The notes below the pieces were generated by a model. It was given only the letters and a program-made list of their open reading frames with translations. It searched no databases and had not been told where the DNA came from. From contig JAGHBR010000127.1 in the NCBI GenBank assembly GCA_021160885.1, forward strand, positions 1 through 32,416: 32,416 nucleotides of DNA, written 5' to 3'. The position numbers and the translations under genes are program-made. Every line of letters starts with the position of its first letter. Position 1 is the stretch's first letter. The stretch comes from Caldisericaceae bacterium. Lineage in GTDB: Bacteria > Calditrichota > Calditrichia > Calditrichales > Calditrichaceae. Shown here in pieces: positions 1 to 12,445 of this stretch.

Positions 1-315
1 CGGGGCCCCGGGGTGGGGACCGTTCGGGAAAAGGGGGCCAGTGGTAATGCGTACCGCCTGGCCGGGCTGTACCGTTTCTTTAAACGGAACGCCTGTCCTG
101 CTTTCCCCGCAATTTGGAGTCGTACCGGCAGTTGTTTTAAATCAGAAAAACGCACAGCAAAGCCATCCATGGCACTGTCGGTAAAGCGCGGGGTCGGTTC
201 CACGGCGGTTAAATCCTCCGCCAGCGCTCGCCCGGTAGCTTCTTCTAAATCGAATGTTTCCACACGGCGTTGCGTACTGCCGGAGGAGTTGAACGGCCTG
301 ATCAACGCTAATCAT
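1..315 (-). pseudogene. moeA: MoeA-like molybdopterin molybdotransferase, N-terminal part, frameshifted, runs off the window
   Basis: Seen: reading leftwards from an ATG at 313-315, one frame gives MISVDQAVQLLRQY. A second frame then continues with RRVETFDLEEATGRALAEDL and TDSAMDGFAVR, and after another shift near position 95 comes GVPFKETVQPGQAVRITTG. These blocks appear in the order and wording typical of the MoeA N-terminus, which inserts molybdate into molybdopterin in Mo-cofactor synthesis. At least two, probably three, frame changes are needed within 315 bases (about 268-275, 90-100 and 18-35). The last 40 bases are rich in G and C homopolymers. The gene is also cut by the window edge. 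I favour low-quality sequence at a contig end over a true pseudogene, but the sequence alone cannot decide. No ORF in the supplied track represents it. Confidence 0.6.
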
Positions 316-916
316 TTGTTCAATAAAGCGCACTTCGATGGAATGATCACGCGCCAGTTTGGCCATTGGTACAATTTCATCTTCATTCAGGCCGCGTTGC
401 ACCACCATGTTCAATTTTAAAGATATCTGGCTTTTCAGCACCTGTTGCAATCCATTCCAGACTTTGGGAAAACCATTATGACGCGTAATTTTTTTCAAAC
501 TTAACAGGATTTAAAGTGTCCAACGAAATATTAATGCCATTCAGGTGGAAGGCTTCCAGATCAGATAAATAGTCGGCTAACAGCAAGCCATTGGTGGATA
601 AGTGAATCTTTAATTGCGGGCTGAGTTGTCTTAATTCTTGCAAAAAGGGAATTACTCCTTTGCGTATCAACGGTTCGCCTCCGGTGATGCGTACTTTTTT
701 CAGTCTGCTAGCCAGCATCAACTGAACAACACGCAAAATTTCTTCAAAGCGCATGATCTGTTCGTGTGCTAAAAATGGCACGCCTTCAGGCGGCATGCAG
801 TAGCTACACCGCAAATTGCAACGACCTGTAACGGCAATGCGCAGGTAATTTAGAGTCCGACCAAAGGGATCTATTAAAGCAGGAAATTGGGGGCATTTTG
901 TTTTAATATCATTCAT
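316..916 (-). pseudogene. moaA: GTP 3',8-cyclase MoaA, frameshifted and lacking its C-terminal domain
   Basis: MoaA is the radical-SAM enzyme for the first step of molybdopterin synthesis. The first frame (916 to 476) shows the SAM-cluster motif CNLRCSYC (Cys33, Cys37, Cys40), then TGGEPL and NISLDTLNP. It then breaks in a run of seven A on the coding strand (489-495). Removing one A gives NPVKFEKITRHNGF and continues in the 498..142 frame through VVQRGLNEDEI to VRFIEQM. At that point, about residue 200, the match to MoaA stops and MoeA-like sequence begins. The C-terminal half, which carries the second 4Fe-4S cluster, is therefore missing, so the locus as written cannot encode a working enzyme. 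AAAGGAGC precedes the ATG at 914-916. Identity is certain; whether it is a real pseudogene or an assembly/sequencing artefact is open. Confidence 0.8.
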
Positions 917-1137: not shown

Positions 1138-1917
1138 TTAAGTTTTATCTTTTAATTGTTTAAAGATAGCGGCTTTTATTTGATTAATCTGTTCTTCACT
1201 TAAAGCAGATGCCATCTTTTCTGATGCTTGATTAATTTGTATTGGCTCGCTCTGACATTTGCTAATTGAACCTGCCAGGCCATAGCGACTGCGCAGTTCC
1301 ATCAGTTGCTCGGTCACCTGTTCCGAAAGCACATTAACCCGCCCTAATTGCATGGCATTCCAGATTATGTGGGCCGTATGCTCCAGGGTTTCCATCTTAA
1401 AATAGGCGTTCATCAAATCAGAGCCAAAGGTCAATGCGCCGTGATTGGCAAGTAAAATGGCTTCTGAATGTTTCACATGGGGTCGAATTTTTTGCGGCAC
1501 TTCCTCTGTTGATGGCAGGCCAAATTCCGCAATGGGCACCGAACCTAAAAAAACAACCGCTTCAGGTAGTACGCAACGATCGAGAGAGATGCCGGCCACA
1601 GCAAAACTGGTGGCATAGGGCGGATGGGCATGTACCACGGCCTTGATGTCTGACCTTTGCCTGTAAATTTCTAAGTGCATTTTTACCTCGCTGGATGGCT
1701 TGTGTTTGGCGCTGCGTTCCAGTGGTTTGCCGTTCATATCCACTTTAACAATCATCTCCTCGGTCATAAAGCCTTTGCTCACGCCAGTAGCTGTGGTCAG
1801 AATTACATTATCTGACAGGCGCACCGAAATATTGCCGTCATTGGCAGCCACAAAGCCTTTTTGCCACAAACGTCTGCCGATTTCGATGATTTCTTTCTTT
1901 ATTTGCCAGATTTGCAT
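1138..1917 (-). CDS. Class II aldolase (L-fuculose-phosphate aldolase type) with C-terminal extension
   Basis: Seen: a 259-residue class II aldolase/adducin-family protein. The Zn-site residues are recognisable: Glu77 in SSE, His96 and His98 in HAHP, and His159 in ANHG. NDGNIS near residue 26 is the phosphate-binding region. Known: the family cleaves fuculose- or rhamnulose-1-phosphate (or ribulose-phosphate-like sugars) into dihydroxyacetone phosphate and an aldehyde; which substrate applies here cannot be told. Classical FucA is about 215 residues long. This one adds a Ser/Gln-rich linker (about 219-238) and an amphipathic helix, SEEQINQIKAAIFKQL, at the very end, the layout of a bacterial-microcompartment encapsulation peptide. 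No shell genes are in the window. GAGAAAAAAAGG precedes the ATG. The gene follows fliO after 318 bases and looks unrelated to motility. Confidence 0.9.
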   Translation of the reverse strand: MQIWQIKKEIIEIGRRLWQKGFVAANDGNISVRLSDNVILTTATGVSKGFMTEEMIVKVDMNGKPLERSAKHKPSSEVKMHLEIYRQRSDIKAVVHAHPPYATSFAVAGISLDRCVLPEAVVFLGSVPIAEFGLPSTEEVPQKIRPHVKHSEAILLANHGALTFGSDLMNAYFKMETLEHTAHIIWNAMQLGRVNVLSEQVTEQLMELRSRYGLAGSISKCQSEPIQINQASEKMASALSEEQINQIKAAIFKQLKDKT

Positions 1918-8399: not shown

Positions 8400-8795
8400 T
8401 TAAACGATTGCTAAACTGTCAATATTGGTAAATATTTTTTGATCGCTTTGATTTTGATGAATAGCGGTAATCACTGTCTTGTTTTTTACACTGACGACAA
8501 AGGCCCGATCATCCATCAAAACCACCGAATTTTGAGCACCTTTGGCCTCCAATTGGCGCACGCCTTGTTGCAGCCTTTGCAAATCCAGTTCATTAAGATT
8601 TAGTTCTCTGGCTTCAAGGCGTTTTAAAGCGTGTGCCGAAAACTTAAGCGCACTGTTTTGCTGCAGTTTATTTTGCAGCAAAGAGCCAAAATCAACCTTC
8701 GACGCTCCGGCTTTGGACTGCGCAGTACGGCTTGTCCCATCAATGGGTTTTAAAGGCCGTATTCCCTGCTGCATTTGTAATTCTGATACTTTCAT
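8400..8795 (-). CDS. TIGR02530-type flagellar operon protein
   Basis: 131 residues with the hallmark FSAHALKRLEARELNLNELDLQRLQQGVRQLEAKGAQNSVVLMDDRAFVVSV, followed by KTVITAI. The FS-x-HA-x-x-RL-x-x-R core identifies the small family (TIGR02530, flg_new type) that sits between flgD and flgE in many firmicutes, spirochaetes and other deep lineages. Its biochemical role is not well established; the position suggests help with hook assembly. There is no signal peptide or membrane segment, so it is probably cytoplasmic or exported by the flagellar system. AGAGGTGC precedes the ATG. The gene is 11 bases downstream of flgD. Confidence 0.88.
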   Translation of the reverse strand: MKVSELQMQQGIRPLKPIDGTSRTAQSKAGASKVDFGSLLQNKLQQNSALKFSAHALKRLEARELNLNELDLQRLQQGVRQLEAKGAQNSVVLMDDRAFVVSVKNKTVITAIHQNQSDQKIFTNIDSLAIV

Positions 8796-8806
8796 GATGC
8801 ACCTCT

Positions 8807-9487
8807 TTAGCCAATCTGAACCACATCGCCAAAGTAAATTTCTTTACCATCAACCACCAGCACCGGTTGCCCCTGTTCATATTTTACAGCGGAAACAATG
8901 CCACGGGTGTAGGTTTGAACATTCACCGGATTATCCTTATCATCGAGAGCCGTAATCTTGAAGTGATAGGTCCCACCTTGCAGTGCATTCCCGGCATCGT
9001 CTTTGCCATCCCAATCGACCGTGTGTCGACCTTTTTCCAGCTCCGACATTTTGATGGTACGCACCAGGTTATCATTGGCGTCGTAAATTTCAATGGTAGC
9101 CTCTTTGCTTGCACCAGCCAATTCAAAACTGAGCGGCGCAGATTGCCCGGTCAGCAAGGGGAAACTGTTTCCATAGGCAACCACTTCTTTACCGATGAAA
9201 TGGGTGGCCATGGTATTGTTTATGGTCTGAGCTAACATCATATCAGCATCAATCCCCTGCTGTAAGCTTGTGTCAATATCCATCAAACGCTCCAGAGAAC
9301 TGAATTGCGCCAACTGGGCGGCAAATTCCTGACTTTGTAAAGGCGACAGGGGATCCTGATTTTTTAACTGGGTGACCAATAGCTGTAGAAATTCGTATTT
9401 CCCCATGTCGGCATTGCCCAACTTTGAACTTTGCTGCGTGCTGTTGCTCTGCTGTAGTGCATTGATGGAATTAATCATGTCTTCCAT
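8807..9487 (-). CDS. flgD: Flagellar hook capping protein FlgD
   Basis: 226 residues. The N-terminal segment GNADMGKYEFLQLLVTQLKNQDPLSPLQSQEFAAQLAQFSSLERL (about 24-70) is the conserved export/cap motif of FlgD. The C-terminal half has FlgD Ig-like and tudor-like domains, with IEIYDANDNLVRTI, VDWDGKDDAGNALQGGTYHFKI and a final KYEQGQPVLVVDGKEIYFGDVVQIG. FlgD caps the growing hook so that FlgE can polymerise. GGAGGAAAATC precedes the ATG. It follows fliK by 10 bases, consistent with hook-length control and hook assembly being made together. Confidence 0.96.
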   Translation of the reverse strand: MEDMINSINALQQSNSTQQSSKLGNADMGKYEFLQLLVTQLKNQDPLSPLQSQEFAAQLAQFSSLERLMDIDTSLQQGIDADMMLAQTINNTMATHFIGKEVVAYGNSFPLLTGQSAPLSFELAGASKEATIEIYDANDNLVRTIKMSELEKGRHTVDWDGKDDAGNALQGGTYHFKITALDDKDNPVNVQTYTRGIVSAVKYEQGQPVLVVDGKEIYFGDVVQIG

Positions 9488-9497
9488 GATTTTCCTC

Positions 9498-11393
9498 CTA
9501 AACGGTTATTTCCATTGTGTTGTAACCAAATTTTCGGTTTGCTAAGGTGGATTGCGATTCATGATGACCGACCTCCTTTCCTGAATTAAACGGGTTTAAC
9601 ATTTGTCCTCTCTTTTTTGAAGTTAGTTGTTTTTGCTGATCAGATTGAGCAAATTGCCCCACATTTACCTGAAAACTGTTTAAGGTAATTCCTTTGTCAG
9701 CTAAATTTTGTTGAATGACAGGCGTCAGTTTGATCAGTTCATTACGTATTTGTTCATTTTCGACCACAACGATTAGCTGCCGGTCGTGTTGTTGAAACTT
9801 CAGATCGATTTTACCCATCGGGGTGTCATCCAGACTCATGCGAATGGATCCATTGTGCAACTTTGTGCTCCGCACCTGATCCACCAGTTCTTGAACTCTG
9901 GCAATTAACTGATCCATGCTGGAAACATTTTTTGTGCCGTACCGGTGCACAAACTCCATGTTTTGTAATGTATTATTTGACGAATGAGCTATTTGATGAA
10001 TTTGAATTTTTAACAGTTTAGTGTCGCTTTTATTTTCAACCGCCGTTTCTTGAGTTCCCTCAGGTTGATTACTTGTTTTTTGAAAATTTGGTAAAATTTC
10101 AGAAGAAGTTTGCTGCTGAACTTTTTCTTCTGTTTCCACCTTCAAAATCAAATTTAAAGGCTGTTGACTTTCCTTTTGCGTCAAAGTTTTGCCCAACACA
10201 TGGTCAACCCCAGGTTGTTGCCCTGGATGCACAGGATCGGTTGTCTTGCTGTGTTCCGTCAAAACAAAAGCTTTTTTTGTTTTGATTAATTGGTTTACCT
10301 GCGGTTTATTACTTTCTTTCTGAAAAGCCATTTGTTCTGCCGTATTTGCAGCTAAATTTGCTTTAAGCGAAATTTCTGACGTAGCAGGTTTGGGTAAACC
10401 TTGCGTACCAGCTTGTTCAATTGTTTGATTCGTTTGATTGGGTTGATTGGATTGAACAACTTCCGGCTGACTAACGATTTGCTTAACAGGCTCAATAGAA
10501 ATTTTAAACAAATTCGTCTGGTCCTTCTCCGAAACAGCCTGAATGCGAACATTGAGCTCCGGCGCCTGTTTTAAATTTATTTGCTGAAGAATTTTTTGAA
10601 CTTCCTGCTCCTGCTCAACCGGTTGCCACATCAGGCCAGTCAGATTTTTAAGATAAACGGTACCACTCTGTTTAGTTAGCTGACTGGTTTTAAGCGTCTG
10701 ATGTTCAGAACAGGTCCGAACCTGAGTTGAAGACTCTGCTTTTCTGTCCATTGTTTGGGAAATCATTGAGCCTGCAGATGTAGAACTGCATTTCAGTTGG
10801 CTGCCCGTCTTTTGATTTGTTAATACCGATAGAGAGGATTCCTTCTGCGCTGCAACAAAATTTACTTTCACTATTTTGGCAGAAGATAGCGCCAGTTGAT
10901 TCTGAACATCTGAAGCATTAAGCGCTGCTTGAATCAGCTTATTTACAATAGGACTTAAATTGTTTTGAAATTGCGCAAAAAAATTGGTATCGGCTGCTGC
11001 TGGCCAGCTAAGCTCGGTTTCTAATAGTTTAACCTTTTTTAGTGGTTCTGAATCTGCAACGTTACTGGCATTAGCCAACTTTTTTTCAGCTTGTTCAGGA
11101 ACATTATTGCTGGCCATGACTTGCGCTACGTTTTTAGACCCGTTAACATTTTTTTGCTCATTCCCCGACAAAGGAGCCGCAGCCTGGTTTACCGGAATAA
11201 CAATCGGCCTATGCGATTTAGATACCGGCTTAACCGGATGTTTCGTTTTTGTCCACAGGTTGAAGAAAACACCGGGTTTTGCTTTCCAGGAAAGGCCACT
11301 ACCAATATTAACTACGCCTTTTACAGCACTTTTGGCGCTCGCTGGTAAACCTTTTTTGATTGTTTGTGCTGGATTAAAGATTAAATTTTTCAT
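9498..11393 (-). CDS. fliK: Flagellar hook-length control protein FliK
   Basis: 631 residues, longer than enterobacterial FliK (about 400). Most of it is a low-complexity region rich in Gln, Asn, Thr, Ser and Lys, as expected for the molecular-ruler part. The C-terminal domain (about 495-590) carries the recognisable FliK pattern: VRSTKLHNGSIRMSLDDTPMGKIDLKFQQHDRQLIVVVENEQIRNEL, followed by QNLADKGITLNSFQVNV. FliK sets hook length and switches the export apparatus to late substrates through FlhB. The disordered region contains many short Q/N-rich stretches. Identification rests on the C-terminal domain and on the position before flgD. Confidence 0.92.
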   Translation of the reverse strand: MKNLIFNPAQTIKKGLPASAKSAVKGVVNIGSGLSWKAKPGVFFNLWTKTKHPVKPVSKSHRPIVIPVNQAAAPLSGNEQKNVNGSKNVAQVMASNNVPEQAEKKLANASNVADSEPLKKVKLLETELSWPAAADTNFFAQFQNNLSPIVNKLIQAALNASDVQNQLALSSAKIVKVNFVAAQKESSLSVLTNQKTGSQLKCSSTSAGSMISQTMDRKAESSTQVRTCSEHQTLKTSQLTKQSGTVYLKNLTGLMWQPVEQEQEVQKILQQINLKQAPELNVRIQAVSEKDQTNLFKISIEPVKQIVSQPEVVQSNQPNQTNQTIEQAGTQGLPKPATSEISLKANLAANTAEQMAFQKESNKPQVNQLIKTKKAFVLTEHSKTTDPVHPGQQPGVDHVLGKTLTQKESQQPLNLILKVETEEKVQQQTSSEILPNFQKTSNQPEGTQETAVENKSDTKLLKIQIHQIAHSSNNTLQNMEFVHRYGTKNVSSMDQLIARVQELVDQVRSTKLHNGSIRMSLDDTPMGKIDLKFQQHDRQLIVVVENEQIRNELIKLTPVIQQNLADKGITLNSFQVNVGQFAQSDQQKQLTSKKRGQMLNPFNSGKEVGHHESQSTLANRKFGYNTMEITV

Positions 11394-11404
11394 GCTGCAC
11401 CCAA

Positions 11405-11977
11405 CTAATTTTTTAACAATTTTTGCGCTATGGCCGCGGCTCGATTTGCCGGTAAACTGGCTAATAAATTCTTTTTGGCTGTATTACTCATTTGCTGATA
11501 AATTTGTATCAGTGATTCATCATCCATTTTAGCCACAATGTTTGACAAATTTTTGCCTTTTAAGCCCGATAGTGTCTTGGCCAGGTCTTTAATTCGCTGT
11601 TGTTGTTCTTTGTTTGCTACCAGCTTTTTCTGAAGTTTCTGAATTTCTTCCTGTGCTTTTTCAAACCTGGCCTGAAATTCTCTTGTTTTTTGCGCTAATG
11701 TATCCATTTTCATTTGTTTTCTTTTTAAAGAATCATTTAAAAAATCAATTACGGTAAATAAACTATCCATGGTATGGCGCAGATCGGCCCAGCGTTTGTT
11801 GCGGAAATCATCCATGGCATGGGCTTTAATTGCCATCCGCTTTTCTTTTTCAGATAATTTTTGCACTGGCTGTTGCCCAGGCTGGGGCGGCATCGGTTTG
11901 ACCAGGAAAATGGCCCCAACAATAGCCAGCACAATAATCGGCAAGCTTAATGTGCTAAAAATGAGCATCCTTACCAT
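11405..11977 (-). CDS. MotE-like protein (membrane anchor, coiled coil, MgtE-N-like domain)
   Basis: 190 residues. There is one N-terminal transmembrane helix (about 5-27, FSTLSLPIIVLAIVGAIFLV), a Pro-rich linker, and a long coiled coil (about 40-125). The C-terminal helical domain, LAKTLSGLKGKNLSNIVAKMDDESLIQIYQQMSNTAKKNLLASLPANRAAAIAQKLL, resembles the MgtE intracellular N domain (FliG-like fold). Genes of this design lie next to fliJ in many non-enteric flagellar operons and have been named MotE, a proposed stator chaperone. The stator role here is inferred. The ATG follows the fliJ TAA by three bases, with GGGGAG overlapping the fliJ end, so translation is probably coupled. Confidence 0.75.
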   Translation of the reverse strand: MVRMLIFSTLSLPIIVLAIVGAIFLVKPMPPQPGQQPVQKLSEKEKRMAIKAHAMDDFRNKRWADLRHTMDSLFTVIDFLNDSLKRKQMKMDTLAQKTREFQARFEKAQEEIQKLQKKLVANKEQQQRIKDLAKTLSGLKGKNLSNIVAKMDDESLIQIYQQMSNTAKKNLLASLPANRAAAIAQKLLKN

Positions 11978-11980
11978 TGC

Positions 11981-12445
11981 TTACTCCCCGGATTCCTCTG
12001 AAGATGGCTTTTTGCGAATGGCAATTTCATCGATTTTTTCCATTTCTGCCTTTTGAATATCGTGTTTCTGATTGGCCTGAAAATGATCTTTTAAGGTTTC
12101 CAAAATTTTACGTTCTTTTACCGCATTGTTTAATTCGGCTCTTTTCTGTTCTACAACGGATTTTAAATTCTCAACATTTTTGTATTGATTTTCAATGGAA
12201 TTGTGCAGTTGATCCAGATAACTTAGTTTAATTTTAAGTTCGTTCAGATCGATTTGCGTGTGTTGCTGCAATTGCTCGCTGGCCTGCTGCAACAATTGAT
12301 CTTTTGAATGTTGTAACTGACCTAAAACCTGCTCAGCTTCATTCTGTCTGGCTTTGGCTTTGTGCATTTCAAGCGTTCCAAGCGCTTCCAAATGTTCTTT
12401 AAATTCGAGTACTTTTTGCAGTCTAAAATTTTTTAATCTGGCCAT
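11981..12445 (-). CDS. fliJ: Flagellar export chaperone FliJ
   Basis: 154 residues, almost entirely helical and charged, with the typical FliJ opening FRLQKVLEFKEHLEALGTLEMHKAKARQNEAEQVL and a continuous coiled coil. FliJ binds the FliI ATPase ring, like the stalk of a rotary ATPase, and escorts export chaperones to FlhA. It lies 7 bases after fliI. Sequence identity in this family is low; the call rests on length, coiled-coil nature and the fixed fliI-fliJ order. Confidence 0.88.
   Translation of the reverse strand: MARLKNFRLQKVLEFKEHLEALGTLEMHKAKARQNEAEQVLGQLQHSKDQLLQQASEQLQQHTQIDLNELKIKLSYLDQLHNSIENQYKNVENLKSVVEQKRAELNNAVKERKILETLKDHFQANQKHDIQKAEMEKIDEIAIRKKPSSEESGE

Follow-up and report, generated by a model that had tools for sequence, protein, structure and literature searches.

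The PVM and PVM-like bacterial microcompartments (BMCs) of Planctomycetes and Verrucomicrobia and of Melioribacter roseus, the last of these being PVM-like (PMC4207490), use a PF00596 aldolase as their signature enzyme, together with a BMC-type aldehyde dehydrogenase (AldDH) and a shell, and their aldolase gene lies inside the BMC locus. The ACI BMC of Acidobacteria (PMC8217296) likewise has a PF00596 aldolase, which carries a C-terminal encapsulation peptide, as well as a BMC-P triplet and split loci, of which the main one encodes the aldolase and a satellite the AldDH. In the SPU and SPU-like (sugar-phosphate utilization) BMCs, a DeoC-type (PF01791) or class II aldolase feeds the AldDH. Many MIC and FRAG types have been catalogued with no signature enzyme: Axen et al. 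assigned an AldDH, a pta-type PTAC, and PduS but no signature enzyme to the MIC locus of Caldithrix abyssi (PMC4207490), and Sutter et al. described the FRAG types as scattered genes with a BMC-P triplet and no obvious signature enzyme (PMC8217296). The DrdA/Ald2 aldolases of the DHAP shunt, which are also class II, convert 5-deoxyribulose-1-phosphate to DHAP and acetaldehyde after the action of an MtnA-like isomerase (PMC6079011, PMC12632272). In the literature we found no paper tying DrdA/Ald2 aldolases, or 5-deoxyribulose, to microcompartments, and none joining Calditrichota with bacterial microcompartments.

The window analyzed here is the whole 32,416-nucleotide contig C487 of a 93%-complete, 3.96 Mb genome in 542 contigs (labeled G000). 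It encodes a class II aldolase that, judging from its sequence and that of its relatives, is very probably off-locus cargo packaged into a scattered BMC via a C-terminal peptide, a degree of confidence that applies to packaging into the BMC and excludes the substrate. The parts of the gene are as follows.

1138..1917, minus strand: class II (PF00596) sugar-phosphate aldolase, 259 aa (open reading frame; Pfam 5e-52)
1282..1917, minus strand: aldolase catalytic core, residues 1-212 (PDB alignment and AlphaFold2)
1198..1281, minus strand: flexible linker, residues 213-240 (AlphaFold2; length and sequence vary among homologues)
1144..1197, minus strand: putative C-terminal encapsulation peptide, helix 241-258, EEQINQIKAAIFKQLKDK (AlphaFold2, homologue conservation, and shell-gene association)

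We read the window protein as a class II, metal-dependent aldolase of ketose 1-phosphates, and a family search of the genome retrieved no other PF00596 protein. The E, H, H, H metal site that is a feature of the FucA/DrdA class is present as E77, H96, H98, and H159, all invariant across 11 aligned aldolases (window included), and we take these residues to be the equivalents of E73, H92, H94, and H155 of E. coli FucA, with an offset of +4. The aldolase reached the cut-off of no NCBIfam model, so sequence scores do not name its substrate. Mis-binning in this metagenome-assembled genome is unlikely, as the closed genome of the same genus (G001, 4.98 Mb) has a tailed homologue with 69% identity. 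Close to the contig edge, at window positions 142-916, a radical-SAM/MoaA-like coding sequence is divided between two overlapping frames, perhaps through misassembly or because the gene is broken.

An earlier note on this DNA had described the aldolase as about 40 residues longer than ordinary fuculose-phosphate aldolases, with the extra part forming a linker and a helix, and this anatomy is borne out. Aldolases in the PDB align with the window protein only to about residue 213-215, and E. coli FucA is 215 aa long; as the solved relatives end there, the window aldolase has about 44 extra residues. AlphaFold2, run on the 11-sequence alignment (mean pLDDT 85.7), predicts a core with pLDDT mostly about 85-96 and dips of 63-73, whose last helix spans residues 199-212. 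This is followed by a disordered stretch at residues 213-240, with pLDDT below 50 at residues 229-237, and then by a confident terminal helix at residues 241-258 (pLDDT blocks 88 and 77). The span given in the note, 1138-1257, corresponds to residues 221-259 plus the stop codon, and the hydrophobic i, i+3/4, i+7 spacing that it pointed out is found in I244, I247, I251/F252, and L255. Encapsulation peptides have been described as about 18-residue amphipathic helices on disordered, poorly conserved linkers (PMC12339742). The window tail matches the hallmark of such peptides, a terminal amphipathic helix of 15-20 residues on a flexible linker of low conservation.

Taken alone, the window helix is unexceptional, with hydrophobic-moment permutation p-values of 0.08 for its best 16-mer and 0.24 for the 16-mer chosen in the earlier note. 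When it is left out of the training set of a tail HMM, the model recovers it only at a weak E of 0.44, in rank 15. A chance helix is allowed by the window sequence by itself, but the comparative data make chance unlikely. The tail rises above chance because the linker and helix are conserved in homologues and because tails of this kind are associated with BMCs. Both elements are kept in the 11 aligned homologues (window included) while the linkers otherwise diverge, and amphipathicity, strong in most homologues and weak in the window copy, has p <= 0.06 in 9 of these 11 tails. The aldolase-tail HMM also gave weak matches to AldDH and EutQ-like helices, plus one non-BMC protein.

Across 40 genomes of the class, all 11 tailed class II aldolases occur in BMC-positive genomes (BMC-P present), whereas the 14 tail-less FucA-like aldolases are divided between BMC-positive (8) and BMC-negative (6) genomes, giving a Fisher p of 0.02 that ignores relatedness. 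Many BMC-positive genomes of the class are without a tailed class II aldolase, which must therefore be optional to the BMC. A survey of the best 80 homologues from named organisms, 79 of which were used (one was cut by a contig end), found shell genes within the fetched stretch (flanks of at most 10 kb) for 68/73 tailed but 0/6 tail-less homologues, with a Fisher p of 2e-6 that again ignores relatedness, many of the 80 being related Clostridia. The remaining 5 of the 73 have BMC-P elsewhere in the genome, as does the window gene. Tailed homologues in BMC-free organisms, which the earlier note had named as evidence against its reading, were absent among the 11 tailed aldolases of the class and the 73 from named organisms. 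In individual genomes, the tailed aldolase gene overlaps a BMC-H gene (G011) or has as neighbors a fragment of a BMC-type AldDH and a kinase of the acetate/propionate family (G003). The class survey also contains a counter-example, G022, with a tail-less aldolase adjoining BMC genes; a tail hidden by a frameshift was considered there, and reading the DNA downstream revealed none.

The tail could instead be a true amphipathic helix used for oligomerization or for binding some other partner. Such a role would fit the unremarkable window helix and the helices that DeoC proteins of BMC-negative genomes also have, but we judge it improbable, given that shell genes occur in every tailed genome tested, that the named homologues without nearby shell genes are the tail-less ones, 5 tailed ones excepted, and that AlphaFold2 predicts a linker-plus-helix anatomy.

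In a tree built from the cores only, with the tails left out, all tailed aldolases fall within one clade (support 98/97), which also includes tail-less aldolases of named organisms. The window protein pairs with that of G001 near the Melioribacter sequences, and the Melioribacter aldolases, with the same type of tail, are among its nearest relatives. This placement beside Melioribacter-type BMC aldolases, together with the off-locus position of the gene in G000 and several relatives, would also be expected if the aldolase had been transferred from a PVM-like BMC locus and were now cytosolic, its tail a relic. Nevertheless, off-locus copies in several genera retain the helix, and each genome with an off-locus tailed copy has retained its shell, so that we regard a relic as very improbable. 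Just upstream of the tailed aldolase in G001, a two-PF00596-domain protein (L073:8473-9756) ends in NEIREIEKKFLT.

Packaging of the window aldolase calls for a shell encoded somewhere in the same genome. The earlier note had seen no shell genes in the window and had supposed that a shell locus might lie elsewhere, and the family searches agree on both counts. Searches with PF00936 and PF03319 found nothing in the window, nor did an ad hoc shell-gene DNA pattern, a weak test beside the family searches. Elsewhere in G000, contig C301 has five PF00936 domains in three BMC-H proteins and one double-domain BMC-T protein, and four PF03319 genes encode BMC-P proteins, three of them grouped as a triplet on C375 and the other on C275, so the genome encodes both BMC-H/T and BMC-P shell proteins. 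As read from its sequence and family matches, C301 carries the double-domain BMC-T, an RnfC/PduS-like protein, EutJ, an EutE-type acylating AldDH, two BMC-H, and Pta, and further on a 104-aa EutQ-N-like protein, ParA, and a BMC-H with a weakly EutK-like C-terminus. The AldDH scores 690.9 bits (cut-off 403), and the genome has no other strong AldDH of the BMC type; both items that the note had proposed looking for, shell genes and an acylating aldehyde dehydrogenase, are thus present in G000. The AldDH begins with MHLDDKQIAQIVETVLSRL, an N-terminal helix of like design to the aldolase tail. The note's central proposal, that the tail is a microcompartment encapsulation peptide, is supported as a probable reading by these shell genes and by the tail-BMC association.

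With the aldolase on C487 and shell genes on C301, C375, and C275, the BMC parts are dispersed. Three shell contigs and the BMC-P triplet are FRAG-type traits, noted here without a shell tree and with no class assigned. The window aldolase joins the tagged class II aldolases already known, and its arrangement differs from those described. In PVM and PVM-like BMCs the aldolase gene is in the BMC locus, whereas in G000 it is off-locus; compared with ACI, with which G000 shares a tagged PF00596 aldolase, a BMC-P triplet, and split loci, the placement is reversed, the main locus having the AldDH but not the aldolase. The AldDH, pta-type PTAC, and PduS of the Caldithrix abyssi MIC locus correspond to the content of C301 and of G001. 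In contrast to that locus, published with no signature enzyme, we propose two tagged aldolases encoded at other sites of the genome, and our results suggest that the window aldolase is a candidate aldehyde-making signature enzyme for a BMC catalogued without one.

Two further genes of this set deserve mention. The ParA-family ATPase of C301 (L011:8445-9221) lies inside the BMC gene cluster and is possibly a BMC-positioning protein. An ACT-domain protein with EP-like N-terminal helices is encoded between BMC-P and DUF711 genes (L013:264-722 on C275; L090:5472-7287) and is a possible BMC regulator or cargo.

In PduA, the AMVKAA and AATDAGAAAA helices reportedly form a peptide-binding groove between tessellating hexamers (PMC11157265), and both strings occur in the BMC-H proteins of G000. 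The tail helix of the aldolase would dock into such a groove between tessellating BMC-H tiles, and packaging would place the aldolase beside the EutE-type acylating AldDH and Pta. Inside the BMC, the aldolase would cleave a ketose-1-phosphate to DHAP and a small aldehyde, which the dehydrogenase would convert to an acyl-CoA and Pta in turn to an acyl phosphate. DrdA releases acetaldehyde, and equilibrium disfavors its aldol cleavage (PMC6079011); in the proposed organelle, cleavage might be pulled forward because the aldehyde is removed.

For the substrate, our most likely guess, made from gene content and with somewhat less than even confidence, is 5-deoxyribulose-1-phosphate or methylthioribulose-1-phosphate supplied by MtnA in the manner of the DHAP shunt. 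We prefer this role because an MtnA gene is present in G000 and there is no other MtnB candidate, a separate MtnB being missing since the window gene encodes the sole PF00596 protein. G000 thus resembles the DrdA/Ald2 systems in having a class II aldolase and MtnA, but its aldolase gene is not clustered with mtnA. The MtnA neighborhoods showed no link to the aldolase, the neighbors looking like gyrase genes, and in two of the genomes with a tailed aldolase, G010 and G011, MtnA does not reach the cut-off. The MtnA argument is weak because MtnA is widespread and unlinked to the aldolase, and ribulose-1-phosphate is a possible alternative substrate.

The earlier note had implied a function in fucose or rhamnose degradation, and this part of it is not supported. 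A packaged enzyme of that kind would be an L-fuculose/L-rhamnulose-1-phosphate aldolase yielding L-lactaldehyde, as in PVM, PVM-like, and GRM5 BMCs, and would compete with the DHAP-shunt reading on substrate only. The nearest BMC-linked relatives do include Melioribacter (PVM-like, PMC4207490) and Clostridia loci, and in two relatives the tailed aldolase keeps such company: FucI and an FGGY kinase adjoin it in the L095 BMC locus (8793-12107), and FucI follows it in L167 (2487-3959). Caldithrix abyssi, moreover, grows on xyloglucan (PMC5317091). In contrast to the PVM and PVM-like systems, however, searches for the isomerases RhaA (PF06134) and FucI (PF07881) gave no match in G000 or in closed, same-genus G001, and so do not support a fucose or rhamnose role; the C301 AldDH and its partners, furthermore, are EUT-like. 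As such, we consider this substrate unlikely for the window aldolase. The gene contents of L095 and L167 fit a fucose BMC in those relatives.

A second tagged aldolase is encoded on another contig of the genome.

L246:1704-2540 (G000 contig C352), off-locus: DeoC with an EP-like N-terminal helix, ITPDVIERIISQVIS

This DeoC is probably an acetaldehyde source for the organelle that would house the window aldolase. Its N-terminal helix is conserved in about 15 relatives, where the gene usually adjoins BMC-P and a pyrimidine-nucleoside phosphorylase, and it is from these relatives that we infer a shared organelle. The adjoining of DeoC and BMC-P in many relatives recalls the SPU and SPU-like BMCs, but G000 and G001 have their DeoC gene off-locus and combine it with a class II aldolase. 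The DeoC proteins of three BMC-negative genomes (G025, G026, and G021) have a helical-looking N-terminal extension too, so the helix is not proof of packaging. A DeoC-tag HMM gave no meaningful score against the aldolase tail, so the two tags are not detectably homologous. The dispersal is plain in G001, where the shell, AldDH, Pta, and PduS genes lie at about 0.39 Mb, the aldolase at 2.15 Mb, BMC-P at 2.58 and 2.81 Mb, and DeoC at 3.83 Mb, so that hundreds of kb separate the aldolase and shell genes.

It is conceivable, though we would not expect the full scheme to hold, that a single scattered Caldithrix-like BMC with two tagged aldolases, DeoC and class II, channels sugar phosphates derived from nucleosides, among them the 5-deoxyribose and methylthioribose left over from SAM chemistry, to acetaldehyde-type intermediates. 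If true, the organelle would serve the DHAP shunt, and MIC and FRAG organelles without a signature enzyme would gain a candidate function. Since the proposed source of the aldehyde can be pinned to one defined gene and its tag, function becomes directly testable. BMC surveys centered on shell-gene neighborhoods can miss cargo encoded elsewhere, and our survey suggests that such off-locus cargo can be found in practice by looking for a C-terminal tail on class II aldolases.

Two aldolases for one organelle are plausible because DeoC stands beside BMC-P in relatives and because a single BMC locus in a member of the Myxococcota (L103:6409-10771) has neighboring genes for DeoC and a tailed class II aldolase, along with RpiB and TIM. 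Among the ORFs of C301, C375, and C275, inspected by eye, we noticed no RpiB (PF02502), which is a trait of SPU-type BMC loci. The TIM of the Myxococcota locus has an N-terminal helical extension.
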